A stretch of DNA of 64,000 bases. Origin: Massospora cicadina. Its lineage: Eukaryota; Entomophthoromycota; Entomophthoromycetes; Entomophthorales; Entomophthoraceae. This document shows, one piece after another, positions 1,923-50,961 of this stretch (the first letter of the stretch is position 1; every line of letters starts with the position of its first letter). A model generated the notes under the pieces. It was not told the DNA's origin, did not search any database, and saw nothing but the letters and a program-made list of their open reading frames with translations. Made by a program: the position numbers and the translations under genes. The DNA lies in assembly GCA_022478985.1 (NCBI GenBank), contig JAKSZP010014888.1, forward strand, positions 1-64,000, read 5' to 3'.

Positions 1923-3287
1923 TGTAAGTCTTGGGGAATGTCCCCAGGCTCTTGATTGGGCCATCTTCCCATTCCTAAGTAAAAAGACACCAAAGAGGAT
2001 GGCGGTACCCCTCATTACTCAAGGTGATCTCGCTCACATAGTAGATTAGTGATGGGTAACAGCTCTTTCACTTTGGATCCCACCCCCAGTACCCATACTC
2101 ACCTCAACAGAACTATTGTGGGAAATTAACAAAATCTGTGCTGAGATTGTCAAATTGAAATTGGTCATATCTAGTTCAAGTGGCAATCTGTACGGTGCCC
2201 AAATCTCAAATGGCTGGAAAGACATGAATACTGAGGTATCAGACAGAATGCTTAACGGTTCCAATTAATTAATATGCTGATAGAACTAACATCAGGCACC
2301 ATTGACAAGGGATCAAAGCCCTCTGTTGGCAATTTGGGTGGTGTGGCTGATATGATGCCATTGACTGAACGAATGGACCAGTGACTGAGCGCAGATGGGT
2401 TGGAAATCCCAAACCCATTCCCAACCAAATGGACCTGCCCTTATGTGGGGTAGCCTTGGGGGATTACCATCACTCGTTGGGCCAAACACTGTCACACCAA
2501 CCATTAGAAATGTAGCTGAGCCTCAGTTTGGACGTTTGAGGTCAAACCAACAGCAACTCAGCTAAGCCAAATTTTGTGATGTCAGTTCCCATGGAACAAA
2601 CCCGCCCATTCCTGTACAATTTTAAAGTTAGGTTGAAATGGAGGTACCCAATCCTAACTTGTCACTACCCCAATTGACCACTATTTAATCAGTTGCATAG
2701 CACTGAGAAAATTGTTGGTCAATTTTCTTTTTTCCTTCAATAAAATTTTACCAAAAAACACAAAAAAATTTATTATTTCTTCTAACTGCATCTCTGATGG
2801 CATTTCCCTGGTGGCCTGTCAGTCCATATACTGGATAAACTCTACCAGTACTCTTGGTCACTATGGCCCCCTCTGTCATCAATTGGGTTCAGTGAGTCCA
2901 ATATTTTTGGCTCTACAACCCCATTCTTTTTAACTTCCGGCAGCAATACCCAAGGAACTTGTGGCCATATGTCCACCAATTGCAAGAGAGAATCAATCTC
3001 CTTGCCACCTCAGTTGAAATGGCTCCATATGCTGAGGATCTCATCAAAACTATCTCAGTGATCCCACCCCCTGCAGTAAGACCCCCTGGGTCAGGAGTGG
3101 GTTCAGTGTGGTTTGTCATTGGGATCATTCTTACCATGTTGCTGCACCAACACTGTCATCTCCCAATGCCCAGCTCCATATCAAGTCATTCAGTCGGCAA
3201 TGCCTCTGGCATTCTGGCTTGCTTTTTGGGTGTTTATGCATCCCAATTGGCAGGCCGGTCTAAACTTCTTCTTCTGTTTCCATGACA
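1923..3287 (+). repeat. 5' LTR of element B (1,365 bp)
   Basis: It begins TGTAAGTC and ends CCATGACA, matching the 3' LTR at 7,762-9,130 throughout, with scattered substitutions. A TATTTAA promoter-like motif lies near 2,682 and an AATAAAA polyadenylation-like signal near 2,738, which places R between them. Both sides of this core hold coding-like sequence. Upstream (about 1,975-2,400) is homologous to the sequence after the chromodomain. Downstream (about 2,780-3,287) is homologous to the 149-residue ORF at 8,640-9,089. This is long for an LTR of a chromovirus. Confidence 0.9.
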
Positions 3288-4080
3288 TAATCAACTAACC
3301 TTTATATCCAGCCACTTCCGCCCTGTTTTTTGAACTGGGTGCTGCAGTGGTTACTCTCTACCAAATGAATGTGTAATCAGTAGTTTGCTGTTTGTTGTTT
3401 ATTTGGTTACTTTCCAATTTTGGGAGAAGTATCCGCTTTACCTTTGGAAATCTTCTTCAAGCCACCCAAGCTGCACAGATTTCATCTCCTCCTCTGTCCT
3501 CCAGCCCGGAGAGAAGATCAAGTGTCCTCTCCCAGAAGATCACTAATCAGGTTCTCAAAGTGCTCACTGAAGTGCAAATATGTACAGCAATTGCACTTTA
3601 TAATGCTTCTGCGTTGTCTCATGCTAACAAGGGCTCGCGTTGTTGGATGCTGTGGATGGAGATGCCCGCTGTTGGGTGAGAGGTCTTTTGCGTTCTTCCT
3701 CACAAGCAGGAGACTCCACCCCACTGATGGCTGTCGTGTCAGCTGCCCTGAAACCCCCTGTGTCCCAATCAGACCACTTATTTATACTAATCTATGCTAT
3801 GGCTGAAACCCTAGCTTGGTTTCTTTGGTTTCTACCTTTTTTGAATTGGCCCCTGTGTCAGGTCTACCTTTCAATATGCTTCAGGCAGTCTTTATATTGG
3901 GCTTGGACTCAGGTTCCACTCATCATGGGGTCTGATCTACTGTCCAAGGATCAGTAGATCAAATATGTGACTCTGCAACCACCATCAACGCCTTACCTCA
4001 TCATGTTACCCGTTATCAGAAGGCAAATTTCTTAATTGGATTACCCAAAGTAGACGCAGATGATGCTCCAGTCTCTGAGG
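3288..4080 (+). pseudogene. Element B: decayed gag region
   Basis: This is the interval between the LTR and the protease. Open stretches at 3,392-3,679 and 3,640-3,957 overlap in different frames and are broken by stops. No CCHC zinc knuckle is visible, so the call as gag rests on position only. Directly after the LTR the sequence reads TAATCAACTAACC. Element A has TAATTGACCAACC at the same place, the expected primer-binding-site position, but neither begins with the usual TGG and I cannot assign a primer tRNA. Self-priming, as in Tf1-like elements, is possible. Confidence 0.5.
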
Positions 4081-4607
4081 TAGTGGTAGACTTGGGTACC
4101 AACCTTGCCATAACCCCTGAGTCCAAGTTGGCAGTTACAGAGTTAACTATTAATGATTCTGTCCAAGCCCAGATGGAGGAAGTCGTTTCCCCTGCCCTCA
4201 TACTTCCAATTTTTGCTCCAGCAAAGGACCCTGACCTTACCCCCAATATACCCGTTATTTCTTCAGTCACAAATGAGTTGGTAAAATCTTCCAATAAACA
4301 GAACTTTGCTTATTTTCTTGTACCTATGAAGATCAGTGTCAACCTGCATCATGCCTCCTTCAAAGTTCTGGTGGGTACCAGAGCTGCGGTGAACTTCATG
4401 AGTGTGGAGTTGGCACAAAAATTAAAACTGGGAATAGATGTGGGCTCCTCAGTAATGGTGGCCTCATCTGCTTATCAATCCTCATATGTTGTTCACTGAC
4501 CAGTACCCTTTTCAATCCACCAGTTCAACTTCTGTGATCGTTTTTTGGCTATGCCAAACTTGGTGTTTCCAGTAATCTTAGGTGTGGGGTGGTGGCGCTG
4601 ACAGCAT
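4081..4607 (+). pseudogene. Element B: aspartic protease, active site lost
   Basis: The open frame at 4,083-4,499 continues past a stop at about 4,497. It carries the region homologous to the element A protease, recognisable by YFLVPMKISV before the active site and NFMSVELAQ after it. The catalytic Asp-Thr-Gly has become Gly-Thr-Arg (about 4,372-4,380), so proteolysis is impossible even if translated. The downstream sequence up to about 4,600 leads into the RT in a shifted frame. Homology to the A copy is clear. Confidence 0.8.
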
Positions 4608-6120
4608 GTGAAGATTCATTTAGAGTCTAACACGTTGTCATTTACCAATGATGATTCAGAGGGAGAGTTCCCTCTGATCAACACCCTCAAGAAGATACAG
4701 GGAACCAGCTCTATCACTACCCTGGTTACTTCTGCGGGCATCCCGGTCAATTTCCCTGAAAGCTTAATGCAATATTGGAGAATCTTCAACATGGAAAAGG
4801 CGGATCACCTGCCTAAGCACATCAGGTATGATTGTGGGTTTCAAACAACCGTGGAGTTGGTGAACATCAACTGTCCGTTGTATCCCCATACAGCGGAGGA
4901 AGAAGTTGCACTCAATACCTGGTTAAACAATACGTTGAAAAAAGGTTGAATGTTCAAAGAGACCTCACCCATCGCCTCCCCCACCATCTTTGCCAAAAAA
5001 TTGGATGGTTCTCTTCATCTCTGCATGGATCACGGTCATCTGAATATAATAACAGTTTTTGATCTCTACCCATTGCCCCTGGAGCAGGCAATCAGCCAGG
5101 TAATCACCAAATCCTGTGTGTTCTTAAAGCTGGATCTGGTGAATGCCTTCAACCAAATTTGGGTAATGGAAGGGCAGGAATGGTTAACCGCAATCTGAAC
5201 AAAGCGAGGCATTTTTCAGTTTTGTGTAATGCCCTTCAGGCTTAAGAATGCTCCCACTACATTTCAATGGATGATCAACAATGTACTGGGTGACCTCTGG
5301 TTTACTTGTGCAATTGCATACATTGATGATATCCTGGTTCACTCCCCAACTCCTGAACAACATGCTATTGACTTGGAAGCCGTGGTGGTCGCCTTGCATA
5401 AAGCAGGGTTGTTCCTCAAAGCTTCCAAGTGTGAGTTTTATAAGGAGGAGGTCACTTTCCTTGGGAACCTGGTTCTCAAAGATGGTGTCGCAATCCCTCC
5501 TAACAAGTTAGATGCAATCCAAGAATAGCCAACTTCAACTACCCAGAAACAATTATAGAGTTTCTTATGAACCATCATTTTCTTAAAAAAAGTTCTCCCC
5601 CGCACTTTCACAGCTCGCCGCACCACTCCACCCCATTACTGGGAAAAACATACCATTTTGTTGGACGCCCAAATGTCAGCAGTCATTTAGATCAACCAAA
5701 GAGGTGTTTATGTCTCCGCCTATCTTGAAACATGCCAATCCCACCCAAACTGTATATTGTTGCACGTTATTCCTCATCATTAGCAGTGGGAGCGGTGTTG
5801 CTTCAGGAGCATTATAGTCTGGAACATCCGGTTGCTTATTTTTCCCAAAAGTTCACAGCCATGGAGCAACCTTGGGCCATTTACGAAAAGGAATTGACAG
5901 CTGTTGCATGGGCATTAACTCATTGTCAGTATCTGTTGCAGGGTGCCTGACATGAATTAACAGTCTACACGGATCACCAGGCCCTTTTGTATTTCTGCAA
6001 ACCCCAAAAATTGGCACATCAGCAGGCCAAAGATATTGGGACCTGTGAAGTTTTAACTTTAAATATGAATTTGTCAAAGGTGTGCATAATGTACTTCCTG
6101 ATTTCCTAAGCCACAGTCCC
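4608..6120 (+). pseudogene. Element B: reverse transcriptase and RNase H
   Basis: Frame segments at 4,608-4,949, 4,950-5,198 and 5,229-5,528 carry the RT. Recognisable blocks are KLDLVNAFNQI near 5,128, FCVMPFRLKNAPTTFQ near 5,219 and the catalytic YIDD at 5,319-5,330 followed by ILVHS. RNase H follows at about 5,732-6,100, with the block VAYFSQKFTAMEQPWAIYEK. The NAPTTFQ block and YIDDILVHS are typical of Ty3/gypsy RT. Stops at about 4,948 and 5,197, and frame changes between 5,530 and 5,740, disable it. Confidence 0.85.
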
Positions 6121-7479
6121 TCCCAATGTACCTCAGAACCTGAGGAAGTGGATCTCGTTACTGTGATTCCTGCCACTCAGATTCTGTCAATTGTTCCCCC
6201 ATTGTTTCCTCAGTCACATTGGCTCCTGACGCCCCATCATTGGCTCAGGTTTTAGTCAGTCAAATGGCCTTCCCTGAGGGTGTGGAGTTGGTCGAGCAGT
6301 TGGTCCACTTGAGTCACAAACACTCCCTATACTCCTTAGAAGAGGGACTCATTTACTTCCATTCCTGCATTTGGGTTCCCCCTCCTTCCAATCAGAGATA
6401 TTCCACGCACATCACGATTCCCTCATGGTCAGACATCCCAGTAACAAGAAATGTATTGATTTGATCAAGCAAACCTTTAATTGGGTGGGACTGACCAAGG
6501 AGGTCCCAGCTTGGATCGCCGATTGTGTTATTTGTGCTAGGGCCAAGTCAGATCGCTCTGGGAAAAATGGCCTCATGCACCCTTAAAGCAGGTGAAAGGT
6601 TCATGGACCTCAGTGTCTGTGGACTTTATCATTGATCTCCCCTGTTCTAATGGGTTCACAGTGGTGATGGTTGTGGTGGATTGTTTCACAAAATTTTCTC
6701 TTTTTATCCCTTGTACTTCTGTGATTATGTCAGAAAAAACTGCCTGTCTTTTTATACGCCATGTGTTTTGAATGTTCAGTCTTCCCAGGAGATCATCAGT
6801 GACCGGGGTTCACAGTCTACTGCACAGTTTTGGAGTGAATCCTATCGATCCTGAAAATTACCCCTGTCAATCCATGGTGTATCACCCTCAGTCTGAAGGA
6901 CAGACCAAGCGGGTTAATCAAGTCTGCAAACAGTACCTGCGTTTCTATGCTGCAGCAGCGCAGGATATTTGGGCCGGTGACTTGCCCCCACTCAATTTGC
7001 TTACAATAATGGGACCCATGCATCCACGGGGTGTTCCACTTATTAAGCAACGTTGGGTTTTAATCCTTCATTTTCAGTCAGCCCGTGCTTGCAGCCTGAG
7101 GTTCAAGCTGCCGCGGATCATGCTTCCCATATCCAATCAATGCAAGCTTTAGTGAGGAAACACCTTACCAAAGCCATTGACAACTACAAGTGGTTCACAG
7201 ATCATAAGCACCTTCTGGGTCACAATTTTATGGTGGGTTCCTATGTCATGCTTGATACCCGTCATTTGCAAATTCAAACCCCTTCCTGCAAGTTCGCCAG
7301 TAAGCGCTCAGGCCTCCATTTAGTGGAGAAGGTATTGGGTAACAGGGAGTTCTTACTGAAGCTTCCTGTGCATTGGAAGCTGCACCCTGTTTTCCATGTT
7401 TCCCAGATGTCGCCCTTTAAGGGTGTAATTCCTATAGAACTGGAACCAATCATTGTCAATGATGGGGAAGAAGCCAAGG
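6121..7479 (+). pseudogene. Element B: integrase
   Basis: Open segments at 6,219-6,464, 6,371-6,586, 6,772-7,152 and 7,053-7,511 cover the integrase in several frames. The zinc-binding region retains a CVICARAK block near 6,523. The catalytic core is recognisable by DFIIDLPCSNGFT (first Asp, about 6,628) and by YHPQSEGQTKRVNQ near 6,880, the block carrying the catalytic Glu in related elements. The C-terminal part contains HPVFHVSQMSPFKG (about 7,383-7,424), typical of the gypsy integrase tail just before a chromodomain. Frameshifts make it a pseudogene. Confidence 0.82.
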
Positions 7480-7640
7480 TAGAGGCCATTCTGGCATCCT
7501 GGAAGTTGTGACGTTCTGTCCAATATCTTGTGGTCTGGAAAGGGTACCCAGCCTACAAAAATAGCTGGGTCAAGGCGCACAATTGCACAAATTGCATGGA
7601 CTTGGTCGAAGCTTTCCATATATCCCACCCCAAGGCTCCC
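7480..7640 (+). pseudogene. Element B: C-terminal chromodomain
   Basis: After the integrase tail comes VEAILASWKL, a stop at about 7,509, then YLVVWKGYPAYKNSW (about 7,529-7,573). The aromatic pair and the W-K-G-Y-P...W pattern are characteristic of chromodomains at the end of chromovirus integrases, where they bind modified histone tails and steer insertion. The same block is present in element A near 11,500-11,600. The reading frame remains open past the chromodomain, through the polypurine tract and into the 3' LTR. Confidence 0.82.
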
Positions 7641-7740
7641 CTTCCTCCCCAAAAAAAGGTACAATGATTATGGCAATCAAGTTACTCAAGGCGCATAAGA
7701 ACGTGGCTCTGGTGCAGTTTCCCAGTGGGGGTGCCCTTCC

Positions 7741-7761
7741 TTTGGAAAAAGGAAAGGGTAA
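7741..7761 (+). other. Polypurine tract of element B
   Basis: The purine-rich run GGAAAAAGGAAAGGGTAA directly precedes the TG of the 3' LTR. This is the expected primer for plus-strand DNA synthesis. Element A has the equivalent run before 11,772. Confidence 0.85.
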
Positions 7762-9130
7762 TGTAAGTCCCAGGGAACGTCCCCTTGCTCTTGATTGGGC
7801 CATCTTTCCATTCCTGAGTAAAAAGACACCAAAGAGGATGGTGGTACCCCTCATTACTCAGGGCGATCTCACTCACATAGTAGATGAGCGATGGGTAACA
7901 GCTCTTCCACTTTGGATCCCACCCCCAGTACCCACGCTCACCTTGGCAGAACTGTTGTGGGGAATTAGCAAAATCTGAACTGAGATTGTCAAATTGAAAT
8001 TGGTTAGATCTAGTTCTAGTGGCAATCTGTCTGATGCCCAAATCTCAAATGGCTGGAAAGACATGAAGACTGAAATAAAAGCCAGAATGCCTGACAGTTC
8101 TAATTCAATTAATATGCTGATAGAACTAACATTGGGCACCATCGACAAGGGATTGAAGCCCTCTGTTGGCAATTCAGGCGGTGCATCTGATGTGATGCCA
8201 CTGATCAAACAAATGGATCAGCAACTGAGCGCAGGCGGGTTGGGCATCCCAAACTGTTCCCAACCAAATGGACCCACCCCTATGTGAGGTGGCCTTGGGG
8301 GTTTTCCATCACTCATCAAGCCAAAAACCTTCGCGTTAACTGTCAGAAACATAGCTGAGCCTCAGTTCAGATGTACGAGGTCAAACCAACAGCAACTTGG
8401 CCCACTGCCAAATTTTGTGATGTCAGTTTCCATGGAATAAACCCATCCATTCCCTAAAAATTCGCCAGTTAGGTCAAAATGTTAGTACCCAATCCTGACT
8501 TGTCACTACCCCAATCGACCACCTATCTAATTGGTTGCATAGCACTGAGAAAATTGTTGGTTGATTTTCTTTCTTTTCCTTAATAAAATTTTACCAACAA
8601 ACACAACTGTTTTTATTATTTCTTCTGACTGCATCCCTGATGGCATTTCCCTGGTGGCCTGTCAGTCTGTATACTGGATGGGCTCTACCAGTACTCTTGG
8701 TCACTATGGCCCCCTCTGTCATCAATTGGATTCAGCGAGTCCAATTTTTTTGGCTCTACAAAATCATTCTCATTAACTTCCAGCAGCAATACCCAGGGAT
8801 CTTGTGGCCATATGTCCAACAATTTCAAGAGAGAATCCATCTCCTTGCCACCCCAGTTGAAATGGCTCCATATGCTGAGGATCTCATTGAAACTATCTCA
8901 GTGATCCCACCCCTGCAGCAAGACCCCCTGGGTCAGGAGTGGGTTCAGTGTGGTTTGTTGTTGGGATCATTCTTACCATTTTGCTACACCAACACTTCGT
9001 CATCTCCCAATGCCCAGCTCCATATAAAGTTATTTGGTTGGCAATGCCTCTGGCATTCTGGCTTGCTTTTGGGTGCTTATGCATCCTGACTGGCAGGCCA
9101 GTCTAAACTTCTTCTGCCATTTTCATGACA
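7762..9130 (+). repeat. 3' LTR of element B (1,369 bp)
   Basis: It starts TGTAAGTC and ends CATGACA, matching the 5' LTR. An AATAAAA signal is near 8,582. It contains open frames at 7,583-7,978 (crossing in from pol), 7,994-8,287 and 8,640-9,089. The first two would extend the pol protein after the chromodomain; the last corresponds to the sequence directly upstream of gag in the 5' LTR. It is followed at once by the target duplication GTTCT. Confidence 0.9.
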
Positions 9131-9135
9131 GTTCT

Positions 9136-10140
9136 CTAAGCTGGATCTGGTGAACGCCTTCAACCAAATTCAGGTAATGGAAGAGCAGTAATGGTCAACA
9201 GCAATCGGGACAAAGAGTGGCATTTTCCAATTTTGTGTAATGCCTTTTGTGCTGAAGAATGCTCCCACTACATTTCAACAGATGATCAACAATGTACTGG
9301 GTGATCTCTGGTTCACCTGCGCTGGTGCATACATTGATGATATCCTGGTTCACTCCTCAACTCCTGAACAACATGCTATTGACTTGGAAGCAGTGGTGGT
9401 CGCCTTGCACAAGGCAGGGTTGTTCCTCAAAGCTTCCAAGTATGAGTTTTATAAGGAGGAGGTCACTTCCTTGGGAACCTGGTCCTTAAAGATGGTGGCG
9501 CAATCTCTCAATAAGTTGGATGCTATCTGGGAGTGGCCAACTCCAACTACCCAGAAACAATTATAGAGTTTCTTATGAACCATCAAATTCTTAAAAAAAG
9601 TTCTCCCCCGCACTTTCACAGCTCTCCGCCCTACTCCACCCACTCACAGGGAAATGTACCATTTTGCTGGATAGATGAATTCCAACAGGCGTTCAAATAA
9701 AATAAAGAGATGTTTGTATCCTCTCCCATTTAAAACACGCTGATCCCACCAAGCCATATATTGTTTCATGTGATGCGTCATCAGTAGCTGTTTTGCAGTG
9801 TTGCTCCAGGAGCACGATGGTTTGGAACACCCAGTCGCCTACTTTTCCCAAAAGCTTACCTCTACATAGCAGTTTTTAGGATATTTGCAACAAGGAGTTG
9901 GCAGCCATTGCATGGGCCTTAACTTAACGGATGTACCTGTTGCAGGGTGCCCAACATGAATTAACGGTCCACACAGATCACCAGGCTCTTTTGTATTTCT
10001 GAAAACCCCAAAATTTGGCACATCAGCAGGCCTGAACCTATTGGAACCTGTGCATTTTTAACTTTAAATACAAATTTGTCAAAGGTGCGCTCAATGTTTT
10101 TCTCAATTTCTTAAGCTGCGGTCCCACCCACTATCCCTTG
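9136..10140 (+). pseudogene. Element A: reverse transcriptase (continued) and RNase H
   Basis: This resumes the RT interrupted at 1,922. LDLVNAFNQIQVME starts near 9,142, the catalytic YIDD is at 9,330-9,341, and the open frame 9,240-9,566 is homologous to B's 5,229-5,528. RNase H remnants continue to about 10,130. Stops (for example at 9,189 and 9,564) and frameshifts are present. It is about as decayed as B. Confidence 0.82.
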
Positions 10141-11480
10141 GAACCTGAGGAAGTGGATCTCGTTACCATGATTCCTGCCACTCAGATTCTGTCAATTGTT
10201 CCCCCTGTCATTTCTTCCATCACTCTGGCCCCCAATGCTCCATTAGTTGCTCATGTCTTAGCCAGTCAAATGGCCTGCCCTGAGGGCGTGGAGTTGGTTG
10301 AGCAGTTATCTCACCAGAAGCATAACCACTCCCTATACTCACTGAAGGAGGGTCTTATATATTTTAGAATTTACGTTTGGGTTCCCCCTCTTTCTGAACT
10401 GAGGTATTTCACGCACATCACAATCCCCCCACGGTTAGTCACCCTGGTTCTAAGAAATGCATCAATTTGATCAAACAGACCTACAATTGGGCAGGTTTGA
10501 CAAAAAGAAGTTCCATCCTGGATCACCGATTGTGTTACTTGTGCCAGGGCCAAATCAGATCGCTCTGGCAAAAATGGCCTCCTGCACCCCTTACAACAGG
10601 TGGAGGGCCCATGGACATCGGTGTCTGTGGACTTTATTGTCAAGCTCCCCTGTTCTAACAGGTTCACAGCGGTGATGATAGCGGTGGATCACTTCACAAA
10701 ATTTTCCCTTTTTATACCTTGTACTTCCACGATAATGTCAGAAGAGATTGCCCGCCTTTTTGTACGCCATGAGTTTTGATGTTTGGTCTCCCCCAGGAGA
10801 TCATCAGTGACCGTGGCTCCCAGTTCACCATGCAGGTTTGGAGTGAACTCCTATTGATCCTTAAAATATCCCCCTGTCACTCCACAGCATATCATCCTCA
10901 GTCTGATGGACAGACCAAGTGGGTCAATCAAGTTCTTGAACAGTACCTGCGTTGCTATGCTGCAGCTGCGCAGGATACTCGGGCCAATGATCTCCCCTCA
11001 CACAATTTGCATACCATAACAAAACTCACGCATCCATGGGTTTTCCCTCTTTGAAGCAACGTTGGGTTATAATCCCTCATTTTTGGTCAGACCGTGCTTG
11101 CAGCCAGAGGTTCAAGCTGCCATGGACCACGCTTCTCATATTAGATTGACTTAAGCCTTAGTGCAGGAACACTTCATCAAAGCCATAGATGACTACAAGC
11201 AGTTTGCAGATTGTAAGCATCTTCCAGGTCACGAGTTTACAAAGGGCTCTTATGTTATGCTCAACACCTGTCACTTAAAAATCCAGGCCCCTTCCCACAA
11301 ATTTGCCATTAAATGCTTGGGTCCCCATTTGGTGGAGGAGGTATTAGGTAATGGGGCATTCCAATTGAAGCTCCCCGCACATTAGAAGCAGCACCCCATT
11401 TTTCATGTTTTCCAGCTGTCACCCTTCAAGGGTGCAACTTCTACAGAACCTGAACCAATCATCATCAAAAACGAGGAGGA
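10141..11480 (+). pseudogene. Element A: integrase
   Basis: Segments at 10,138-10,470, 10,776-11,054 and 11,161-11,385 match the integrase of B. Visible blocks are ISDRGSQFTMQVW near 10,801, containing the second catalytic Asp, and YHPQSDGQTKWVNQ near 10,890 with the Glu-bearing region. The SVDFIVKLPCSN block near 10,623 holds the first Asp. The C-terminal HPIFHVFQLSPFKG block is near 11,390. The tail leads into the chromodomain. Frameshifts separate the segments. Confidence 0.82.
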
Positions 11481-11771
11481 GGTTGAGGTAGATGCCATCC
11501 TGGCATCCCAGAAATCCTGACATTCCGTACAATACCTCATGGCCTGGAAAGGGTATCCAGCCTATGAAAACAGTTGGATCAAGGGCGCGCAATTGCGTGA
11601 ATTGCATGGACTTGGTAGAGGCTTTCCACATATCCCACCCTAATGCTCCCCATCCCCCCAAAAAAAGTTACAACTATTATGGCAATCAAGTTGCCCAAGG
11701 TGCACAAGAATGTGGCTCTTGTGCAGTTCCCCAGTGGTGGGGGCTCTTCCCTTGGGAAAATGAAAGGGTAA
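11481..11771 (+). pseudogene. Element A: chromodomain and polypurine tract
   Basis: VDAILASQKS, a stop, then YLMAWKGYPAYENSW (about 11,536-11,580) form the chromodomain, homologous to that of B. The downstream sequence to 11,771 ends in the purine-rich run GAAAATGAAAGGGTAA, the plus-strand primer directly before the LTR. The chromodomain marks the element as a chromovirus-type gypsy. Confidence 0.78.
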
Positions 11772-12927
11772 TGTAAGTCCTGGGGAACGTCCTCTGGGTG
11801 TTGATTGGGCCATTTTCCCATTTACAAGCAAGAAGGCACCGAAGAGGATGGCTGTACCCCTCATTACTCAGGGCGATCTTGCTCACATGGTAGACAAGCG
11901 CTGGGTAACCGCTCTCCCACTTTGGATACCACTCTCAGTACCCACACTCTCCTCAGTAGAACTGCTACAGGGAATCAGAAAAATCTGCGCTGAGATCATT
12001 GAAATGAAATTGATCATAACCAATTTAAGAGAAAACTAGCCCAATGCTCAGATTTTAAATGGTCAAAAACGTATGAATACTGATTTATTGGCTGGAATTC
12101 CTGATGGGTGCGATTTGGTTGGCATGACTATCAGAAAAATCTCCCCCTCCCAAATTCATCAAGCATCACCCCTGATGGGCAGGTAATAGCACCGGACACC
12201 ATCAACAAGGTTCCAAAGCTTCCTGCTGACAAATTGGGTGTTTCACCTGACACCATGCCATGGACCAAACGAATGGTTCAGCAACTGATCATGGGTGGGT
12301 TGGGTGTCCTGAACCTGTTCCCAACCAAATGGGCCCACCCCTATGTGGGGTGACCTTGGGGGATTCCTGCCGCTCATTGGGCTAAATGCTATTACAACAA
12401 CCATCAGAAATTTAGCAGAGCCCTGGTTTGGACATTTGAGGTTGAACCAAAAGCGACTCAGCCCACCACTAAATTTTTTGATGTCAGTTTCCAGGGAACT
12501 AACCTGCCCATTCCAAAATAATTCGCCAGTTAGGTCAAATTTCGGTACCTGATCCCAGCATGTGTTTCCCCCAAATTGATTACTATTTAATTAGTTGCAT
12601 CGCACTGAGAAAATTGTTGGTCAATTTTTCTTTCCTAAAATTCCATTAAAAAATCCTTCCCAAATTTTAAATTTTATATGTTAAAAATTAAGCTGCCTTA
12701 TCCGCTGATGTACTCGTACCCCTCAGGGTTAACAGCCATATGCATCTGGTACTCTATATTGTGCCTATATGAAATTCTGGCTCACTAGAAGATATTTGTG
12801 GAACTTCCTTCTGGTTCCATATTTGTTGTATCAGCAGCAGTGCCTTGGGCATTGTGGTTTGCTGTTCAGATGCTCTTGCATCTGGACTGGCAGGCCAGTC
12901 TAATTTCTACTTGCTGTTCACCTGACA
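11772..12927 (+). repeat. 3' LTR of element A (1,156 bp)
   Basis: It starts TGTAAGTCCTGGGG and ends CACCTGACA. It matches the partial LTR at 1-860 closely, and the element B LTRs more distantly, so A and B belong to different subfamilies. It is about 210 bp shorter than the B LTR, mostly in the part after the polyadenylation-like region. It is followed directly by LINE-W sequence (ATCCATTCACATATTGATCA), so A is inserted in LINE-W. The expected duplicate of TTCGC (12,928-12,932) lies outside the window. Confidence 0.9.
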
Positions 12928-13056
12928 TTCGCCATCCATTCACATATTGATCAGGGGGAGACTGGCTCTTAGAGCCTTGGGCTCTTGCCCAGTTCACGCC
13001 CATGCTAGAGTTGGGCAGCGCATGTGCATCTGTGTTAGCTTCAGAAACAACTTTCC

Positions 13057-14500
13057 CTATATATGCCAGGTGTGAGATTTGAAGTCCAGGAGGCCCATGC
13101 CTCCTTTGTTCTTTGGTTTTGACAGGGCTTTCAGTGGTATTGGTGCCACCTTTGACTTGAACCACAAGAAAGTTTGGAGCATTGACCTGATTTCTTCTAT
13201 AAGTTTGGGCTCATTGGCAGCATGTGAGCAACATACCACAACTTCAAGAAGATGAAGACATTTATTGCCTGTACTTTCTCTTTGAGGCATAGTCTGGCGC
13301 TTTTCCAGCATGGCATTTGGATCAATAAGCTTGACAATACTTCTTGTTTGGTCTCCAGTACTGCTGGTCCCTTGTAATTGAAGAGTATCCTGAGGTATTG
13401 GACTGTCTGGGAGTTTATAATTGGCGTTGTGTCAGTTAGCGGGCTGAAGCTCAGGTGGCTGACCCTCATCACTGAGGTTTTTGCTAAGTTGATTTTTGCA
13501 TTTGATGCTAGCTGATAGAGGTTTAATAGTTCCTCAGCACCCTGGAGGTCAGTTGAGGAGCTTATTCCTACTACCATATCATCAGCGAATGCTAGCATTT
13601 TAGTGGCATTTGGTTAGGGTGGACTAAACCCTGGAGCTTTGCATCTACTGCTGCCAGTAGAATGTTGGTGCAAAGTTGAAGAATATTGGTGACATAGGGT
13701 TGCCTTGGTGGAGACCTTGCCTGACAGGGATTTTGTTGGTTGTGCCATCTGTAACAATAACCTTTGTTATCAGGCCTGAGTACAGTGTCATTATCCATGC
13801 TCAAAACTTGTCAGGGATACCAACTGTCTTTAGTGCCTCATGAAGGAATGACCATGCTACTTGGTCATATCCTTTTCCATGTCGAGGAACATAAGGTCCC
13901 CTTGTTTGATGCCCCTCATATCCTGGAGTATGCTCTGGACTGAACCAATGCTGTCCCATATACTAAACTTTTGATGAAGCCATGCTGGTCACTATGGATC
14001 GTGCATGGTGCTGTTGCCATCAGACATTTAGATAGGATGCGCGTGAGCAGTTTATAATTGGCATTTGATAGTGCAATTGAGCACCAGTTCTGAAGTTGGC
14101 ATCTGAGGCCTTTTTTGTACAGAATTACAATTCAGGTCTCATGGACTCCCATAATTTGTTTGCCATTGTGCAAACAGTGGTTAAAGAGGGCTTTGAGCTC
14201 TGGTGTGATGCGGTTTCAGAATATGCTGTTTATTTCTGCACACATTGTTGGGGCCTGGTGCTTTCATTCTTGGTGACTTCTTTAGCACCCTCTTAACTTC
14301 ATCAATAGAGATTTTGGAGGATATCTTGGCAACGTCTTCTGACATACAGCCACCCAGTGCCATCTTGGCCAGATCAATAAGGGTTTTTGTCACTGATTTG
14401 CTTGTTTCTCTTTGTTGGAAGAGATTGCCATAAAAAAGTTCGACCTTGCACTTGATTGTTTTGGGGTCTGATGATACTTCCCCTTCCACTGTCTCCACTT
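13057..14500 (-). pseudogene. LINE-W copy 1 ORF2: reverse transcriptase
   Basis: The catalytic motif is F-A-D-D at 13,578-13,589 (context LAFADDMVVGI), the non-LTR version of the Y/F-x-D-D box. Upstream is a fingers region (14,181-14,498) and a frame with remnants of the QGNPMSPILFN-type block. Downstream is the block beginning LNLYQLASNAKINLAKTSV, typical of LINE RTs after the catalytic box. At least two frameshifts split the domain. The homologous copy at 30.8-32.2 kb is slightly better preserved. Confidence 0.85.
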
Positions 14501-14990
14501 CCTGTACCCTAGCCTTAGTTCAAATTTCCTTGAGGTGTTTCAGGCCCTCTTTGGTCATCATCCCCGCTAGGCTCTGATATTGGTAAGTTGCATTGGTCCA
14601 TCTCTCTAAGTCTTGCTTTATCATTATGGCCCAATACATTTTGTGTGTTGTTTAGTACTCACTCCACCAGTCTTTGCTGTCCTGGTGGGTGAGCCTCAGC
14701 CTTTCTAATTTAGACTTCAGTTGTTTCACAGCAGCATTTTGCTTGTAGGAGGTCACTTTTTTGAACTTCATACTATCATTTTTCATTTTTGCTTTGATAT
14801 GGGTCCATCATTCTAGCGGGTCCAACTCCAGGTGGTTGTTCAGATATGTTACCAGTCATTCCAGTCCTGCGTCAACCATTTAGCGCCAATCCCCATTCCT
14901 CAGCGTAGCTGGTGCCAGATGCCACTCATGGTTCCTTAGAGGTTCATCAAGTCAATCTCCACCTTGATGACCATGTGGTTTTTTGGCATT

Positions 14991-15720
14991 TTAGCTAACC
15001 TCGCTGTTGGTCATCATTGGCCTGAGGTCCAATGATATGAGGATGTAATCTAGATGTGATCCTGACAGTGGGGATCTGGTGGCGTCATATGACCATTGCA
15101 TTATATTGGCCAGGTCGTCGTCCTCTTCATCAATCATTAGGCACATCCCCAATTTGACTAAGTAATCAAGCATCTCGTCAGCTTTACTGTTGGAACGTTC
15201 TCTCATTGGGTATGTATCCCAGCTCACATTCATCCAACAGTTCAGGTCACCTGCTATTATGGTCATCACTTAGGATGGCACTTCTGCTAAGAATACTCAA
15301 AAATACAGTTTTTGTGAAGCTTCAGTGGGGTGTAGACTGCTACCACTCATATGCTCCTACCAGTGTCTCTGTTTGTAGCTTTAGCTATCAAGATCCTACC
15401 AGCGTGAGTTTCTTCCACAAATTCCAAGTCTATTTTCTTGTCCATTGTGACTATTGCCATGTGGTCCATATATAGGGCTTGGTAGCCTATCTGGCGGGAC
15501 CATGGGTAATTTTTCATGTCACAGTTCAAGCTTGGCACCATTTCCTTTTAGTTACCAGCTTGTGTTTTTTAAATAAAAATTAGGTCAATATTATTATTAG
15601 TTTTTAGATGGTGCATTTTCCTCCTCCTCATTTGTATGCTTGCCATCCCCCGAGCATTTGTAGTCATTATCCTCATTTCTGACTGCTTGACCCACAGGTA
15701 TGAGGTTTAGCGTTGTCTGG
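14991..15720 (-). pseudogene. LINE-W copy 1 ORF2: APE-type endonuclease
   Basis: The segment 14,991-15,269 contains IIAGDLNCWMN and, near its end, SHLDYILIS. These correspond to the GDFN and S/D-LDYI blocks of apurinic-like endonucleases that nick the target in non-LTR elements. The segment 15,347-15,541 carries the preceding beta-strand region (MDHMAIVTMDKK). The start codon equivalent to copy 2's MLNLIPVG is changed to ACG here. Frameshifts separate the two segments. Confidence 0.82.
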
Positions 15721-18700
15721 GTTATGGATCAAGTCCCATACTGAGTTCTGGTTGGTCGATTATGGTGGTGTCAATGGTAGTGGGGTGCAATATTAGGTTT
15801 TTGGGGTCAGTTGGTTGGGACTGGGATTATATACCCAGGCATCCTGTGTACTGGGAACTCAGTCACCATCCCCATCTCCCTGTTGATGGTTAATGGGATG
15901 GTTTTATGATTGGGTCTGGGTGCCCCTTGTTCCCTGCTAGCAGATTATCCCTCATCTATTGGCTGTATTTGCACCCCTTCATTCAATTTAATGGCAGAAC
16001 TCAATTTTTAATCAAAGATTGCCTGGCCAATTTTGTCAATTTTGTCACTCCTGCTGATTTTTCACTGGTTGCCTCAGGTTTGTTTGCTGATGACTTCCAA
16101 TTTGATTTTGTATTCTCTTTTGTCTTGTCAGGCTTCAATTTTGACTTGCTGGCATCCTGTATCCGCCCTTGCTTGGGAGACTTCTTTAGATTCACCTTCT
16201 GCCATCTTTCCTCCTCCAGGACCATCCATTCTGCTTGGGTTAGGCGTTTCTCTGTTAGTCTGGGGTTGGTTCCCTCATCCATTGCATAAGATTTGGGGTT
16301 CAGAATTGTAAACAGTTTATCATCCACTTTGGGTCACTTTGCCATTTCCCATTTCCACGCTTCTCTATGTGCCAGGTCCAATTCTTGTCGCTGGCATTTC
16401 ATATCCGCTACCTCTAAGTTGCGCAGGATCCATTCTCTGGCTTTTGGGTGGAGAGAAAACTTGGTACCCACCTTAGTGATTCCCCTGACGGGGTCATATT
16501 TGTATTCCCATGTAGTTTTACCTTTACAATGGTGGCATTGAGCCATTGTGTGGCCATTCTGATAGCAGAACTGGCACACTTTTTTGGTATCCTCCTGTTT
16601 GACATATAATACCCTATTGAGGCCAGAAAGGAAGGATTAATCTGGGTAGAGCAATTTTGTTCAGTTTCATCCAGGGTGCCAGTTCATACAGCGCTTCCAT
16701 TGTCTGAGGGCAAAGGCACTTTGCAATGTAATTGCCACCAGCTTGCTGGAATTCTCATACTTCCCCATAGTATGACAATCTGGTCTGGATTGCTTTGTGC
16801 ACCCACTCCTATTTGCAATTAGTGGGGAGATTCTGGAAGGTTACCCACCTTGCAGTTTGGTTGGCATATCTGGTCAGTTCCATTTGCAGATAAATCCCCT
16901 TGTATTTGATGCCAATTTTGAGGAGTTTCTTGTGGTCCAAATCGCCTGGGATTACTATATCTATATAGCCCCATTTGGGTACCCAGTGGCGATCAAAGTC
17001 CCCTCTAGCTAGGACTTTGTCAAGTTCCTGATAAATTGACAATATCAGGTCGGACCATTCCTCCTCCTCCACTAGCTGCAGGTGGATTCAGATAGCATCT
17101 TTTAGGTATGATTTTGGTGCCTGGCAATCTGTAAAGCCCCCGCTGATCAACTGGCAGATGTATCTGATGTGTCTCCCTGCTCCGTTCCAGGTGTTGTCTT
17201 TGGTATGCGCCACCACGGCGCTGTAGGATTTGGTTTTCACATTCAGTTTGGGTACTTTGGCAGGGGTCTTTCCCCTTCAAAATCCAACTTACCAATTTGT
17301 CAAGGCTGAATCCCCAGTTGAGGAATGCTTCAATCTGTTGGATGCTGATACCTCAGCAGTTGATACTTCTAGCTATTTGCGCTCCAATCTCTAGGCCCTG
17401 CCACTCTAGGGCATCCAATGGCGAGAACCCCAGTCAGTATCACTTGAGGGTGGATTCTGGGCCACACGTTGGGTGGAGGTATTGTTGAAGGACCTCCAGT
17501 GTAATTGAGCTAAGCTGGCACCAGTCCCTTACTGTGACGCTATTCCAGCCCCTTATCTGTAAATACCCATACCATGTCTTCTGGAACACCTGCTTCACTC
17601 CATTGGAATGCTTCTGAGGGGGTGAAGCCTTCAGCGGCATATGGGGCTGCTAGCGTTGGTTCCAGGAAGGATTGCTTCCAATCCCAGATAGTTTCAATGT
17701 GGATCCCCACTTTGAGCCATTATTGGCCCAAGTCTGGGGTCATGACCCCTTTCATCAATGTTGCTGCCTGTGGCGAAATCTCGTGTTCCATCCAGAGTTG
17801 AGCTGATTGAGGGGTGAACCCCGCTATGTCCCAGTCTGCAGCTTTGGTGATTGTTACAGCATTGCGCCAGATTTTCCACTTTTCAATCAGAAATGGTACA
17901 GCCTCTAAGAGTTTCATTAATTGGTTTAATCACCCCCAGCTCTGCCCATTTGCACACTAGGTCCATACTGGCCCCCACTCAGAACCAGTATTTGATCACA
18001 ACGGTGTGAATTTGTTAGTGGACCAGTTGATGGCCTCTTTCAGCGACTAATCCTGAAAGGGTCCCCATTCCACCACCTTTTCCTTTGTCCACCCCGCTAT
18101 CATCAGGTCTGATGTGGTGGCTGGTGGAATTTGGGTGTATGAGCAGTGTAAGGCCTTGGTGGCCTTAAATCCAGCCATGATCCATGGTAGTGCCTCCTCT
18201 GGGGAGAAAGTAATGTTATACCACTCCAGTGTCATGTCCACTGGAATGGAGTGTCAGGCTCATTTGAGGGCCATAGAGGCATTCAGGAATCATTTTACAT
18301 ACTCAGCTAAATCTGTTGGGTTGAGGACTGAGCTTCTGATGGCTTGGGCATATCAATCTGTAATGCCTGCCTTGTACTCCATCGCATTATATAGGTTGAT
18401 GCTGGCCTCCATACAGGCTTTTGCATATTCTGGTTTTAAATCTTTGCAGATTGCAGCCTCTATTACCTTGTAATCCATGGGGATCTTCATCCATTCCAGG
18501 GCGTCTTCAGTTTGAACTCATGATGCCTTGAATTGTACCGCCATGTCAATCAAGATTTGGGTGTTGAGCCAGCATTTGGCCGCTCCAGCAAAAAACTTGT
18601 AGTCTCACCATATAGCTGCAATGGCTGGTTTGATATCTTTAGAGACCCACTGAGTCACCATAGAGTATGGAAACTGGAGGGCCTCCCATTGTTTAACCTT

Positions 18701-19612
18701 GTGGGCAGACATGCCTCAGTGTGCTAACATGTCTGACTGGATTAGTGTAAATTTAACTGGGGCCCTGGCTGCTGACTTGACCGCTGTCAGGGTTTCTGCC
18801 CCTTCCAGTAATACTTTTAGTTTTTTAGCTGAACTCTCTTGGGTGTCTGATCCCTCATATTTGGTCCCCAATATAGTTTCACCCCCACCTAGGTTAGTCC
18901 TCAATGGATCATATTGAGCCAGCAATTGGCTATTTGGTATCAGCTGTTAATTCATTGTTGAGCTAGAGCCCCCTGTCAGCATGACTTCATCAGTGATTGC
19001 ACCTGATAATGTATTGGGGATCACACCCAATGATTTTATCATGTTGCCAAATCAATTTTGGTTGGGGACCATTCACCCCCCTGACTGAGCCTTTTCAGAA
19101 TTGGAGCCCAACTTCTTCTTCACTTAAATACCCTGAGTGGATTCAGTAAGTTTCTCCATGTTGGTAGAAAACTTTTTGTAGCTTTTCTCTGTTGGTATGA
19201 GCTGCTGATTTTTGTCAATCAAATCTAAGTCAGTTTCAGATCCTACCAATACTTCATCTAGGTTTTTTGTTTTTTTGGCAAAAATTTTCTCACCCTGCGA
19301 GGCCCCAATCCCCTCTACTAATTGAGGTTCAATGGGGAATATTCCCAACTCCACTGTTCTTGGTGCCAGGCCTCACTCCTGGAAGGTTGCTCTTGATGTC
19401 TGGGTGTCATTGGTCACTGATCCTAGGGAGTTGACCCCATTATCTGTGCTAGTCACTAGGGCCCCATGACCCATCAATGCGTTTGCACATTTCATCATTG
19501 TTCATGTCACCAGATCATTACTTGATGTACACATGTTATATTGACCTTCTCTATTTCTAGTCATGTGGAGGCTTGGGCCAGTGGGAAGTTCATCAGATGG
19601 TACATCCATCAT
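15721..19612 (-). pseudogene. LINE-W copy 1 ORF1: 13-residue repeat protein with CCHC knuckle
   Basis: The best start is the ATG at 19,612, conserved in copy 2 at 38,148. N-terminal to the repeats is about 240 residues of polar, weakly conserved sequence (for example MELGIFPIEPQ). About 39 tandem 13-residue repeats follow (about 18,790 to 17,275), then a domain of about 200 residues (16,809-17,270) rich in charged residues with the block KIGIKYKGIYLQMELTRY. Last are a zinc knuckle CQFCYQNGHTMAQC (C-x2-C-x4-H-x4-C, near 16,530-16,580) and a lysine-rich tail. A gag-like nucleic-acid-binding role is inferred from the knuckle and position. Stops and frameshifts are frequent. I know of no LINE ORF1 with such repeats. 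Confidence 0.75.
17275..18790 (-). repeat. Array of about 39 coding repeats of 39 bp (13 residues), LINE-W copy 1
   Basis: Read in the ORF1 frame and allowing for a few indels, the protein falls into consecutive 13-residue units. Examples are SPEEALPWIMAGF, TPQSAQLWMEHEI, TPSEAFQWSEAGV and SIQQIEAFLNWGF. The shared positions are Ser/Thr-Pro at the start, Ala at position 5, Trp at position 8 and a hydrophobic residue at position 13. The DNA units are highly divergent, so the array is old and the pattern is held at protein level. A helical solenoid is the natural guess. Confidence 0.78.
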
Positions 19613-19841
19613 AGCATTCTTTGTATTATTATTAATAAATATTGGTGCAGGAAAGTCATCTGTTTTATGTGCTGCACACAGATGGGCAGATTGGCTTCCC
19701 TACACTTGGGTGGTTGGCTGTTGTTCACTGCTCTATATAATTGCAGTGCGCTCTGGCAGTTGGTTGCTCTCTCAATTCTTGTTCAGTTCACTTTTTGCTT
19801 TTAAAAGTGATATTTGTGAGAGAGGAGCTGATTATGCTAGA

Positions 19842-20205
19842 GAAGATATTTTTAAAATCAATTGGACTTTTGATTCAAAGTTTTGATTTAGATAAACTTG
19901 TTAAATACACAAATGACTACTAACCACTTAACAAAAACATTTAAATTATCAAATCAGCTGAATATCAAACTGCTCAGCTGTAACAATATAGTAAATACCA
20001 TCAAAGTATATAGGATTTTCACTTGTTACATATAAAACTTTTTATTTTACTATTAAAATAATATTTTTTAAAATTTATAAACCTTTTCAGGCATGCACAC
20101 AAAAACTCACCAAAGTTTCATCACAATTGGATGAATGGTATAGGAATGCATTTGGGACAGACAGACAGACAAACATACAGACATTCATTTATATATATAT
20201 ATATT
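19842..20205. repeat. Family Z tail flanking LINE-W copy 1
   Basis: This is non-coding, AT-rich sequence ending in a conserved module: the block CTTGTTACATATAAAACTTT, then TTTCATCACAATTGGATGAA, then GACAGACAGACA and a (TA)n run. The same block follows LINE-W copy 2 (38,384-38,746) base for base with few differences. More divergent versions end the Z copy at 29,150-29,341. Confidence 0.7.
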
Positions 20206-29717: not shown

Positions 29718-29763
29718 TTTTTTAGTACTAGATGGTCCCAACCCAAGGGGGATTCATCGATGT
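29718..29763 (-). mobile_element. Ultrashort retroposon 4 (46 bp), in LINE-W 3' region
   Basis: Six T's, TAGTACTAGATGGTCCC and 23 further bases lie between two perfect copies of AGTTGATTAGTAGCTT (29,702-29,717 and 29,764-29,779). It is the longest of the four and shows more of the source element's 3' end (minus strand: ATCGATGAATCCCCCTTGGG next to the shared end). It postdates LINE-W copy 2. Confidence 0.82.
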
Positions 29764-30430
29764 AGTTGATTAGTAGCTTCATTGCATGCAATGAGCAATC
29801 CAGTGGGGAAAGCCAAATGTGCAGCTTTATAACACCTGGAGATTATGCACAAAAATTTTGAGATCTGATGGAGCTGATCAGAAATAATCCAAATGGTCTT
29901 CAATACCAAACCTCTGTGATGGGGGCGCTCATTACTCAAAACCTTGGCAACGAGTGCACAGTGAATTACCCATACACAATAATGGTAAATGAAGGCTCAT
30001 AGTTAGATCGGAGCCATTCTCAGGGTTTTTGTAAAAAAGGTCCTGCGATGTATATATACCCGGTGGCAAATATTTGCCTGATAGGATGTAATGCATTGTG
30101 GACCAGTATTTTTTGAACATGGCATATTCATAATAACAGTGTGCTATGTCTGCTTCTGGTTTGGTGCATATGGGGCATTCTTTGTGCTGGTAATACAGCC
30201 CAATTTGAATGCCCAATTTAGGATCTGCCGGGTTACTGAACGCTGTTTGGCTGTAACCAAGCAGGAGTTCAGGCCCAAAATCAACTCCTTCATTGGGTAG
30301 TTGGTGTTGTGGCTTTTGGTAGTCCAGTCATTTAGAATTTGTGGACAGGTGGGCAGATTGCACCCCAGTTTTGGAAGCAGATCCCCATATTCTATCAGCA
30401 TTAATTTGTACCTTATTCTGATCAACTTAG
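29760..30430 (-). pseudogene. LINE-W copy 2 ORF2: C-terminal region with zinc motif
   Basis: Frames 30,144-30,425 and 29,932-30,216 overlap at one frameshift. They contain ECPICTKPEADIAHCYYEY (about 30,118-30,180), a C-x2-C...H-x4-C-type motif typical of the zinc-binding region after the RT thumb in many non-LTR elements. No RNase H catalytic pattern is recognisable downstream. Confidence 0.7.
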
Positions 30431-30759
30431 TTGTATGTTTGTCAGCTACTTGGTTACACTTCTCCCAGCTTATAGCAGAAATTATTATGGAATTATGCGC
30501 TTCAACGTCCCTCTGAATTTGGTCAGCCTCTCAGTCTGATTGCTCAAATGACCACCCACCCTAGTGCACAGCCCAATTACATAGTTGCCAATAGTGTGGG
30601 GCACCTTTTTGGGAGGTTATCTGTGGGTGGTTTGCCATCCATTCACATATTGATCAGGGTGAGACTGGCTCTTGGAGGCCTTGGGCTCTTGCCCAGTTCA
30701 CACCCCATGCTAGGGTTGGAAGCGCATGTATATCTGTGTTAGCTTCAGAAATGACTTTC

Positions 30760-32205
30760 CTATATGTGCTGGGTGTGAGATTCAAAGTCCAGGAGGCCCA
30801 TGCCTCCTTTGTTCTTTGGTTTTGATAGGGCTTCCAGTGGCATCAGTACCATCTTTGCCTTGAACCACAGAAAAGTTTGGAGCATTGACCTGATTTTCTT
30901 CTCTAAGTTTAGGCTCATTGGCAGCACATGAGCAACATACACAACTTTGAGAAGATGAAAATATTTATTGCCTGCACTTTCTCCTTGAGGCATAGTCTGG
31001 TTCTTTTCCAGCATGCCATTCATATTGATAAGCTTGACAATACTTCTTGTTCAGTCTCCAGTACCACTGGTCCCTTGTCATTGAAGAGTATCCTGTGGTA
31101 TCAGACTATCTGGGAGCTCATAATTGGTATTATGTCAGTTGGCAGGCTGAAGCTCGGGTTGCCAATCCTCATCACTGAGGTTTTTGCCAAATTGATTTTT
31201 GCATTTGATGCGAGCTGATAGAGGTTTAATAGTTCCTCAGCACCCTGGAGGTCAGTTGAGGAGCTTATTCCTACTACCGTATCATCAGCAAATGCTAGCA
31301 TCTTCAGTGGCATTTGGTTATAGTGGACTAAACCCCAGAGCTTTGCATCCGCTGCTACCAGTAGAATGTTGGCTGCAAAGTTGAAGAGTATTGGTGACAT
31401 AGGGTTGCCTTGGTGGAGGCCTTGCCCAACAGGGATTTTGTTGGTTGTGATATCTGCAACCATAACCTTTGTTACCAGGCCTGAGTACAGCGTCGTTATC
31501 CATGCTCAAAACGTGTCAGGGATGCCAACCATCTTTAGTGCCTCATGTAGGAATGACCATGCTACTCAGTCATATCCTTTTCCATGTCGAGGAACATAAG
31601 GTCCCCTTGTTTGATGCCCCTCATATCCTGGAGTATGCTCTGGACTGAACCAATGCTGTCCCATATACTAAACCTTTGATGAAGCTGTGCTGGGCACTAT
31701 GGAGTGTGCATGGTGCTGTTGCCATCAGACATTTAGATAGGATGCGCGTGAGCAGTTTATAATTGGCATTTGATAGTGCAATTTAGCACCAGTTCCAAAG
31801 TTGGCATCTGAGGCCTTTTTTGTACAGAATTACAATTCAGGTCTCATGGCCTCCCAGAATTTGTTTGCCATTGTGCAAACAGTGGTTAAAGAGGGCTTTG
31901 AGCTCTGGTGTGATGCGGTCTCAGAATATGCTGTTTATTTCTGCACACATATTGTTGGGGCCTGGTGCTTTCATTCTTGGCAACTCCTTTAGCGCCCTCT
32001 TAACTTCATTGATAGAGATTTTGGAGGATATCTTGGCAACGTCTTCTGGCATACAGCCACCCAGTGCCATCTTGGCCAGGTCAATAAGGGTTTTTGTCAC
32101 CAATTTGCTTGTTTCTCTTTGTTGGAAGAGATTGCCATAAAAAAGTTTGACCTTGCACTTGATTGTTTTAGGGTCTGATGATACTTCCCCTTCCACTGTC
32201 TCCAC
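30760..32205 (-). pseudogene. LINE-W copy 2 ORF2: reverse transcriptase
   Basis: The segment 31,101-31,463 carries the uninterrupted blocks GLHQGNPMSPILFNFAAN and LAFADDTVVGI; catalytic F-A-D-D is at 31,281-31,292. The segment 31,921-32,205 holds the fingers region (LDLAKMALGGCMPEDVAK and RMKAPGPNN, the latter like the GPDGI-type block). The segment 30,760-31,023 holds the thumb region. Frameshifts occur between the segments. It performs target-primed reverse transcription in intact relatives. Confidence 0.87.
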
Positions 32206-32599
32206 TTCCTGTACCCTAGCCTTAGTTCAAATTTCCTTGAGGTGTTTCAGGCCCTCTTTGGTCATCATCCCCGCTAGGCTCTGATATTGGTAAGTTGCAT
32301 TGGTCCATCTCTCTAAGTCTTGCTTTATCATTATGGCCCAATACTTTTTGTGTGTTGTTTGGTACTCACTCCACCAGTCTTCGCTGTTCCAGTGGGTGAG
32401 CCTCACCCTTTCTAATTTAGACTTCAGTTGCTTTATGGCAGCTATCCGCTTGTAGGAGGTCACTTTTTTGAACTTCATACTATTGTGTTCATTTTTGCTC
32501 TGATTCAGGTCCACCATTCTAGCGGGTCCAACTCTGGGAAGTTGTCCAGATGCGCTACCAGTCAATCCAGTCCCGCGCCAACCATTTGGCGCCAATCCC

Positions 32600-38383: not shown

Positions 38384-38746
38384 GGAAGTATTTTTAAAAT
38401 CAATTGGACTTTAGATTCAAAGTCTTGAGATAAATTAACTTGTTAAATACCCGAATGACCACTAACCACTTAAAACCATTTAAAATATCAAATTTAGCTG
38501 AATATCAAACTGCCCAGCTGTAACAATATAGCAAATACCATCGAAGTATATATAGGATTTTCACTTGTTACATATAAAACTTTTTATTTTACTATTAAAA
38601 TAATATTTTTTAAAATTCATTAACCTTCTCAGGCATGCACACAACTCACCAAGGTTTCATCACAATTGGATGAATGGTATAGGAATGCATTCGGGACATA
38701 CATACACACAGACAGACACGCAGACATTCATTTATATATATATAGA
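38384..38746. repeat. Family Z tail flanking LINE-W copy 2
   Basis: Closely matches 19,842-20,205 next to copy 1, including CTTGTTACATATAAAACTTT and TTTCATCACAATTGGATGAA, and ends in (TA)n just before the palindrome's left arm. Confidence 0.7.
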
Positions 38747-38773
38747 TAGCCGATCTACCTGTGCTTCGCTACG

Positions 38774-50860: not shown

Positions 50861-50961
50861 GTAGCCATTTTTCCTCCACCTGCTTATACACTTCCCATTT
50901 TCAACTTTGGTGTTATGGAGTGCCGGGCTAACATCTTCTGAACAGGCTCATCCTCATCCTC

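Follow-up and report, generated by a model that had tools for sequence, protein, structure and literature searches.

A 13-residue repeat array, probably under protein-level selection, in two decayed copies of an L1-like LINE from Massospora cicadina

What kind of protein was once encoded by the first open reading frame (ORF1) region of a long interspersed nuclear element (LINE) in which a single 13-residue unit recurs some three dozen times? The question is raised by a 64,000-nucleotide stretch of Massospora cicadina DNA (assembly GCA_022478985.1, contig JAKSZP010014888.1, positions 1–64,000; hereafter the window), which holds two degenerate copies of the element, both on the minus strand. Copy 1 spans 12928–20204 and copy 2 spans 30631–38747, each defined by its homology to the other in self-BLASTN, where the pieces for copy 1 are 89.1% and 86.3% identical, and the whole case rests on these two copies. 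A sequence-only reading had proposed that the middle of ORF1 consists of tandem, tryptophan-containing units in both.

The units are present in both copies, as lag-13 autocorrelation, a unit profile and a comparison of array halves confirm. They follow one another on the minus strand with the consensus [S/T]-P-x-x-A-x-x-W-x-x-x-G-[F/I], each covering 13 residues or 39 bp. In copy 1 the array occupies about 17270–18709 (delimited by all three tests), a length that at 39 bp per unit gives 36–37 units on the minus strand, fewer than the roughly 39 that had been proposed for 17275–18790. The copy-2 array, placed earlier at 34,985–37,340, lies at about 34980–37246 by autocorrelation and profile and is interrupted by 821 bp of inserted DNA (35433–36253) with TG...CA ends and ATTAT flanking both sides; we read this insertion as a solo long terminal repeat (LTR) that is foreign to ORF1. 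With BLOSUM scoring in the best frame, lag 13 reached z=6.77 in copy 1 and z=6.49 in the 36254–37340 part of copy 2 (5.27 across the entire copy-2 range), against best values of 2.1 and 1.2, respectively, at lags that are not multiples of 13. Lags 26 and 39 gave z values of 4.2–4.3 in copy 1 and of 6.37 and 6.36 in the same part of copy 2. The signal at lag 13 was elevated in the remaining frames and on the opposite strand too (z of 2.8–6.1), because the DNA itself has a 39-bp period and the copies contain frame changes.

A profile built from 16 seed units of both arrays, with a match threshold of 6 bits, found 21 in-array matches per copy and one outside the array in each; the gaps between successive matches were exact multiples of 39 bp in 14/20 and 15/20 cases. 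Background for this profile was 37 of 92,928 positions above 6 bits, the best scoring 11.7 bits. A profile from half of the array, applied to the other half (17 versus 13 units, in both directions), scored well above within-unit shuffles (z=9.6 and 10.2), and all 12 rotated registers scored far lower, seeds taken from both halves having already fixed the unit register. The residue preferences named in the sequence-only reading also appear in the unit counts, which are biased upwards because the profile chose the units: among 31 units of copy 1, position 1 is S/T in 12, position 2 is P in 11, position 5 is A in 17, position 8 is W in 16 (aromatic in 22) and position 13 is I/F/L/V/M in 28, and the corresponding counts for 28 units of copy 2 are 14, 10, 18, 18 (21) and 24. 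At the DNA level the units have diverged widely, with a mean pairwise identity in copy 1 of 0.34, 0.39 and 0.28 at codon positions 1, 2 and 3 versus 0.26 expected; the pattern is thus evident mainly in the protein, as had been claimed. What is conserved in copy 1 falls on particular residues (for residue 8, 0.70 and 0.46 at the first and second codon positions; for residue 13, 0.81 at the second), with third positions near chance.

Differences between the two copies suggest that this pattern mattered to a protein. We dropped CpG sites and counted the remaining differences per codon position in seven regions. Within the array, third positions differ at 40/393 sites compared with 13/401 first and 21/404 second positions (P=1.3e-4), an excess that survives correction for the seven regions and that vanishes when the same DNA is read in the two wrong frames. 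The ratio of non-synonymous to synonymous change (dN/dS) is about 0.49 (P=0.0035) or 0.55 (P=0.013), depending on the kappa assumed. A ratio of about 0.5 between the copies, together with the third-position excess, supports the suggestion that selection acted on the protein; the array was probably under such selection before the copies died. Upstream of the array, the copy-1 region at 18791–19561 (minus strand) is open except for stops and carries codon-position constraint in no frame; its differences number 26, 21 and 26 by codon position. The comparison also shows that codon-position statistics of two dead copies can recover both the reading frames and the constraint of a lost protein.

The frames recovered in this way do not establish one ORF. 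The sequence-only reading had envisaged a single ORF1 of 1,200–1,300 residues; the lack of codon constraint upstream and a +1 offset between the last units and the RRM-like segment that follows make it uncertain. The offset is common to both copies, with minus-strand switch zones at 17263–17292 in copy 1 (by frame comparison and codon constraint) and at 34972–35001 in copy 2 (by frame comparison). One-sided, frame-specific tests found third-position excess in frame 1 for the main array (P=0.0008), in frame 0 for the array tail (P=0.009) and in frame 2 for 17,262–16,805 (P=0.018); four other stretches had none. Directly after the switch, at 17,262–17,025, third positions differ at 10/70 sites versus 3/69 and 2/72 at the other two. 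Within the array, the change from frame 1 to frame 0 in copy 1 and the corresponding change in copy 2 each involve one base and lie at different places, so these are copy-specific; the change from frame 0 to frame 2 after the array is shared, a sign that the switch already belonged to the element when it was active. The array frame closes at a stop common to both copies (17,022/34,734), copy 2 having further, earlier stops, and the downstream frame contains no ATG from the last shared stop (17,279; 34,988) to 16,883/34,595, within the domain. CCC-TGC is present at the switch in both copies. The switch may represent programmed +1 frameshifting into the RRM-like/CCHC part; a very short intron at a GTAAGT or a non-ATG start would be the alternatives.

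The identification of the element as an L1-like LINE, that is, a non-LTR retrotransposon, is supported by its reverse transcriptase and by a knuckle motif. A joined copy-2 reading matches the Pfam family RVT_1 (E=2.4e-15; 57.3 bits against a cut-off of 29.6), which places the reverse transcriptase (RT) core of ORF2 at 31103–31640 on the minus strand, with approximate limits. A protein search with the RT, in which 6,378 candidates were scored, returned 43 matches at E<=0.001; the closest relative, an 897-residue protein, aligns with 93% of the query part at 40% identity, and the second best with 55% at 31%. An endonuclease-like piece of ORF2 in copy 1 (14991–15269, minus strand) matches Exo_endo_phos at 13.7 bits, under the cut-off of 24.5, and GDLN and LDYIL were spotted by eye; the copy-2 reading gave no endonuclease match in Pfam. 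In the ORF1 region, the knuckle that had been predicted is present by motif in both copies, as CX2CX4HX4C at 16535–16576 in copy 1 and 34249–34290 in copy 2 (both minus strand); Pfam reported no more than a C2H2 finger below threshold in copy 1, and copy 2 had no match. We call the copy-1 segment at 16637–17262 (minus strand) RRM-like for the strand-helix-strand-strand-helix order at the end of its low-confidence model; a Pfam search of it found no RRM, and the model compared with the PDB returned nothing at E<=0.001.

What might the array have looked like? A structure was predicted with AlphaFold from the copy-2 array stretch together with two other stretches of the window. In the array model, 14 of 16 predicted helices start 0–2 residues into a unit; of the other registers, two neighbouring ones give 13 each and the remaining ten give at most 2. 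Deeper internal alignments intended for folding lost register. One capped short helix per unit is the most likely arrangement, with support at the level of sequence rather than of a fold. Of the helical solenoid proposed in the sequence-only reading, then, one helix per unit draws support from the phasing of a low-confidence model, and a solenoid fold is a possibility.

The history of the two copies bears on how their differences can be read. They are 88.9% identical over 7,249 aligned bases. CpG sites differ at 70/106 (66%), compared with 31/496 CHG (6%) and 183/1,977 CHH sites (9%), a CpG-dominated decay that fits CpG methylation. At 2/12 of the copy-1 stops in the compared stretch, copy 2 reads CAA, a pairing expected of decayed CGA (Arg). 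Five measured stretches are depleted of CpG (observed/expected 0.18–0.45), in contrast to a (CG)n array at 47027–47605 (290 copies, 579 bp, 99% match). Outside CpG sites the copies diverge by about 5–9% across most of the element. The figure rises to as much as 12% upstream of the array and falls to 2% in the RT core, where the stretch at 13905–14504 differs at 5/286 and 6/290 non-CpG sites and forms a mosaic with the rest. This mosaic suggests recombination or conversion. Either the copies come from lineages that had already split when they inserted, or the RT underwent conversion afterwards. If the lineages diverged before insertion, selection would be detectable between two dead copies.

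Searches for relatives of the array found none among known families. Two array pieces matched no Pfam family at E<=1, including solenoids of the PPR, TPR and TALE types. As a protein query the array had no homologue among 7,995 candidates scored (lengths of about 280–890 only), and a long read-through had none among 4,998; this long query and some later queries, Pfam ones among them, include a short linker in the wrong frame, for which copy 2 gives the right one. Scans of viral and genome contigs and of a phage collection found no array, and among the literature titles and abstracts listed as matches, none describes such an ORF1 array. Some matches were set aside. EspG5 chains in the PDB matched the real array at E of 0.43–0.49, which we regard as a composition effect, and a hand-written consensus run against Pfam, NCBIfam and the PDB gave weak or one-helix matches and designed toroids, likewise composition effects. 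The contig scans gave one pattern match (L007); an ORF in a different frame, which by eye resembles a phage DNA polymerase, overlaps it.

The reading that we favour, with a probability of roughly 0.5, is that these are dead copies of an L1-like LINE whose helical array was an assembly device and whose RNA-binding part was reached through the +1 switch. The 36–37 units would precede the RRM-like segment and the CCHC knuckle in the first-ORF region. Each unit would be a short helix whose start is capped by S/T-P (positions 1–2), with A5, W8 and residue 13 forming a continuous core and G12 ending the helix, and stacked units could build a helical rod or superhelix. Such an array would probably take the role that the coiled coil has in mammalian L1 ORF1p, by analogy holding RNA-binding parts together and building a ribonucleoprotein. 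A +1 switch after the last unit would yield mostly array-only products and a minority of array joined to the RNA-binding part. Several observations weigh against this. Oligomerisation is hypothetical, and the case for frameshifting comes from the sequence; GTAAGT at the switch (17,287–17,292) makes a very short intron possible. The P=0.018 after the switch fails correction for seven regions and three frames. No significant third-position excess was found in the RRM-like piece, the CCHC/C-terminal part, the endonuclease piece or the middle of ORF2 (nor in the short piece following the RRM-like one), and an active element would be expected to show it in those domains; the differences there are few, at 6–44 per region. 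Mean pLDDT (predicted local distance difference test) is 39.6 for the array model and 40.5 for the RRM-like model, and the array model compared with the PDB gave nothing at E<=0.001. Finally, protein searches found no ORF1 homologue, so the two copies carry everything.

Other explanations must be set beside this one. The array could have begun as a 39-bp minisatellite, now decayed, that grew within the LINE with no role in a protein: DNA identity at lag 39 is raised (0.318 and 0.332 versus means of 0.252 and 0.256), and lag 13 is elevated in the wrong frames. We consider this very improbable, since conservation among the units concentrates on the first two codon positions of certain residues and is near chance at the third, the copies differ in excess at third positions, and lags 26 and 39 are strong, so that nothing points to recent local expansion. 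A modular RNA- or DNA-binding solenoid of the PPR or TALE kind, used for target choice or RNA packaging, would agree with the place of the array in front of the RRM-like/CCHC part and with the variability of residues 3, 4, 6, 7 and 9–11; 13 residues fit one short helix rather than the helix pairs of PPR and TALE proteins, and the lack of any Pfam family on the array pieces makes this idea doubtful too. The shared +1 offset and the unconstrained upstream region would equally suit an array that was a separate ORF, either a third ORF or a captured gene, translated apart from the RRM-like/CCHC part. Translation of that part would then depend on the upstream ORF, on splicing or on initiation at a non-ATG codon, because its frame lacks an ATG ahead of the domain, and we think the arrangement unlikely.

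A bacterial protein with 13-residue repeats may also have been the source of the units, by capture. Here the sequence-only reading, which mentioned similar units in bacterial proteins, was correct that such units exist. A first written consensus matched five plasmid records, three of which were examined (Lysinibacillus and Natronorubrum were left out), and similar 13-residue units occur in short arrays in Nonomuraea, Euzebya and Acaryochloris. Of the 99 plasmid records matched by a second consensus, 96 are enterobacterial; two of these that were examined hold a different tandem DNA repeat, and all 96 were discounted on that basis. A profile of 16 bacterial units, run over six frames of the window, placed 10/14 matches of at least 12 bits, including the top five, in the two arrays, which make up about 3% of the window's strand-bases; the units had been found with a query modelled on the LINE motif, so this profile is not fully independent. 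The enrichment thins at lower cut-offs (14/27 at 10 bits, 15/43 at 8 and 21/583 at 6). In the reverse direction, the array as a query against plasmids reached no bacterial protein (best E=4), and a DNA search found none. A short capped-helix motif can, moreover, arise independently. The bacterial and LINE units are of the same kind and may or may not share descent, and capture itself seems to us rather unlikely. We hold similarly modest expectations for a broader scenario, in which this LINE lineage swapped its coiled-coil or gag-like assembly device for a 36-unit, one-helix array, possibly bacterial, with a programmed +1 frameshift right behind it that yields plenty of array protein and little of the form joined to the RNA-binding part. 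Retroviruses set a comparable ratio between gag and pol by frameshifting.

The remainder of the window contains further repeats. Copy 1 is truncated at 12928, where an LTR element marked by the repeat pair 1–861/12,067–12,928 begins. The region 1–12928 contains Ty3-like pol readings, judged by eye, and further diverged direct repeats (1923–3287/7762–9130 and 5120–8002/9131–12012); these are probably nested or duplicated LTR elements. Copy 2 probably extends on to about 29,700, according to minus-strand readings at 29,757–30,530 judged by eye. At 49044–55297, minus-strand pol-like readings (50216–53936, by eye) lie between direct repeats that measure about 735 bp and are 87% alike; this is probably another LTR element. 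A large inverted repeat pairs 38730–39580 with 41251–40383 (91.5% alike), and a broken ORF at 41653–42256, which has no Pfam match, contains a phrase like FSENLRDNSNDQGKHFYQDLKTMEE...MMADYCW that we take to be of the kind found in animal transposon-like proteins.

How does the element compare with known systems? With bacterial [S/T]PxxAxxWxxAG proteins it shares the unit length, S/T-P, A5, W8 and the A-G end. The bacterial arrays (a Nonomuraea ORF at L001:1429–2187 and a stretch of L006; Euzebya P0045; part of Acaryochloris P0044) differ in being short; two carry the annotation hypothetical protein, and no gene is listed for those of Nonomuraea. We know of no association of these proteins with retroelements. 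The designed alpha-toroids dTor (PDB 5byo, 4yxz) have similar S/T-x-E-E starts and match the written consensus only (E=1.1e-16); their repeats are 31 residues long and artificial, and the real array does not match them. Among LINEs, the part of PMC4120745 that deals with ORF1 classes describes Type I as an RRM upstream of a CCHC knuckle (I, Jockey, R1, Tad1, plant L1 and L2) and Type II, L1 ORF1p, as a coiled coil, an RRM and a C-terminal domain (CTD). As in Type I, the element has a CCHC knuckle, with retroviral spacing, preceded in a low-confidence model by helices and strands in an RRM-like order; unlike Type I, it has 36–37 units in front, a shared +1 switch and no Pfam RRM match. Like L1 ORF1p, it would divide its labour between a multimerising and an RNA-binding part, and unlike L1 ORF1p it has a period of 13 with a Trp position and a knuckle, and no apparent coiled coil or CTD. 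If our preferred reading is true, the array would be a new natural repeat fold, and the frameshift in the ORF1 region would let a LINE control the proportions of its proteins. The best-understood case of LINE particle assembly is the coiled-coil trimer of mammalian L1; beside it, an ORF1 array of one-helix, 13-residue repeats under selection would accomplish the same task in a new way.

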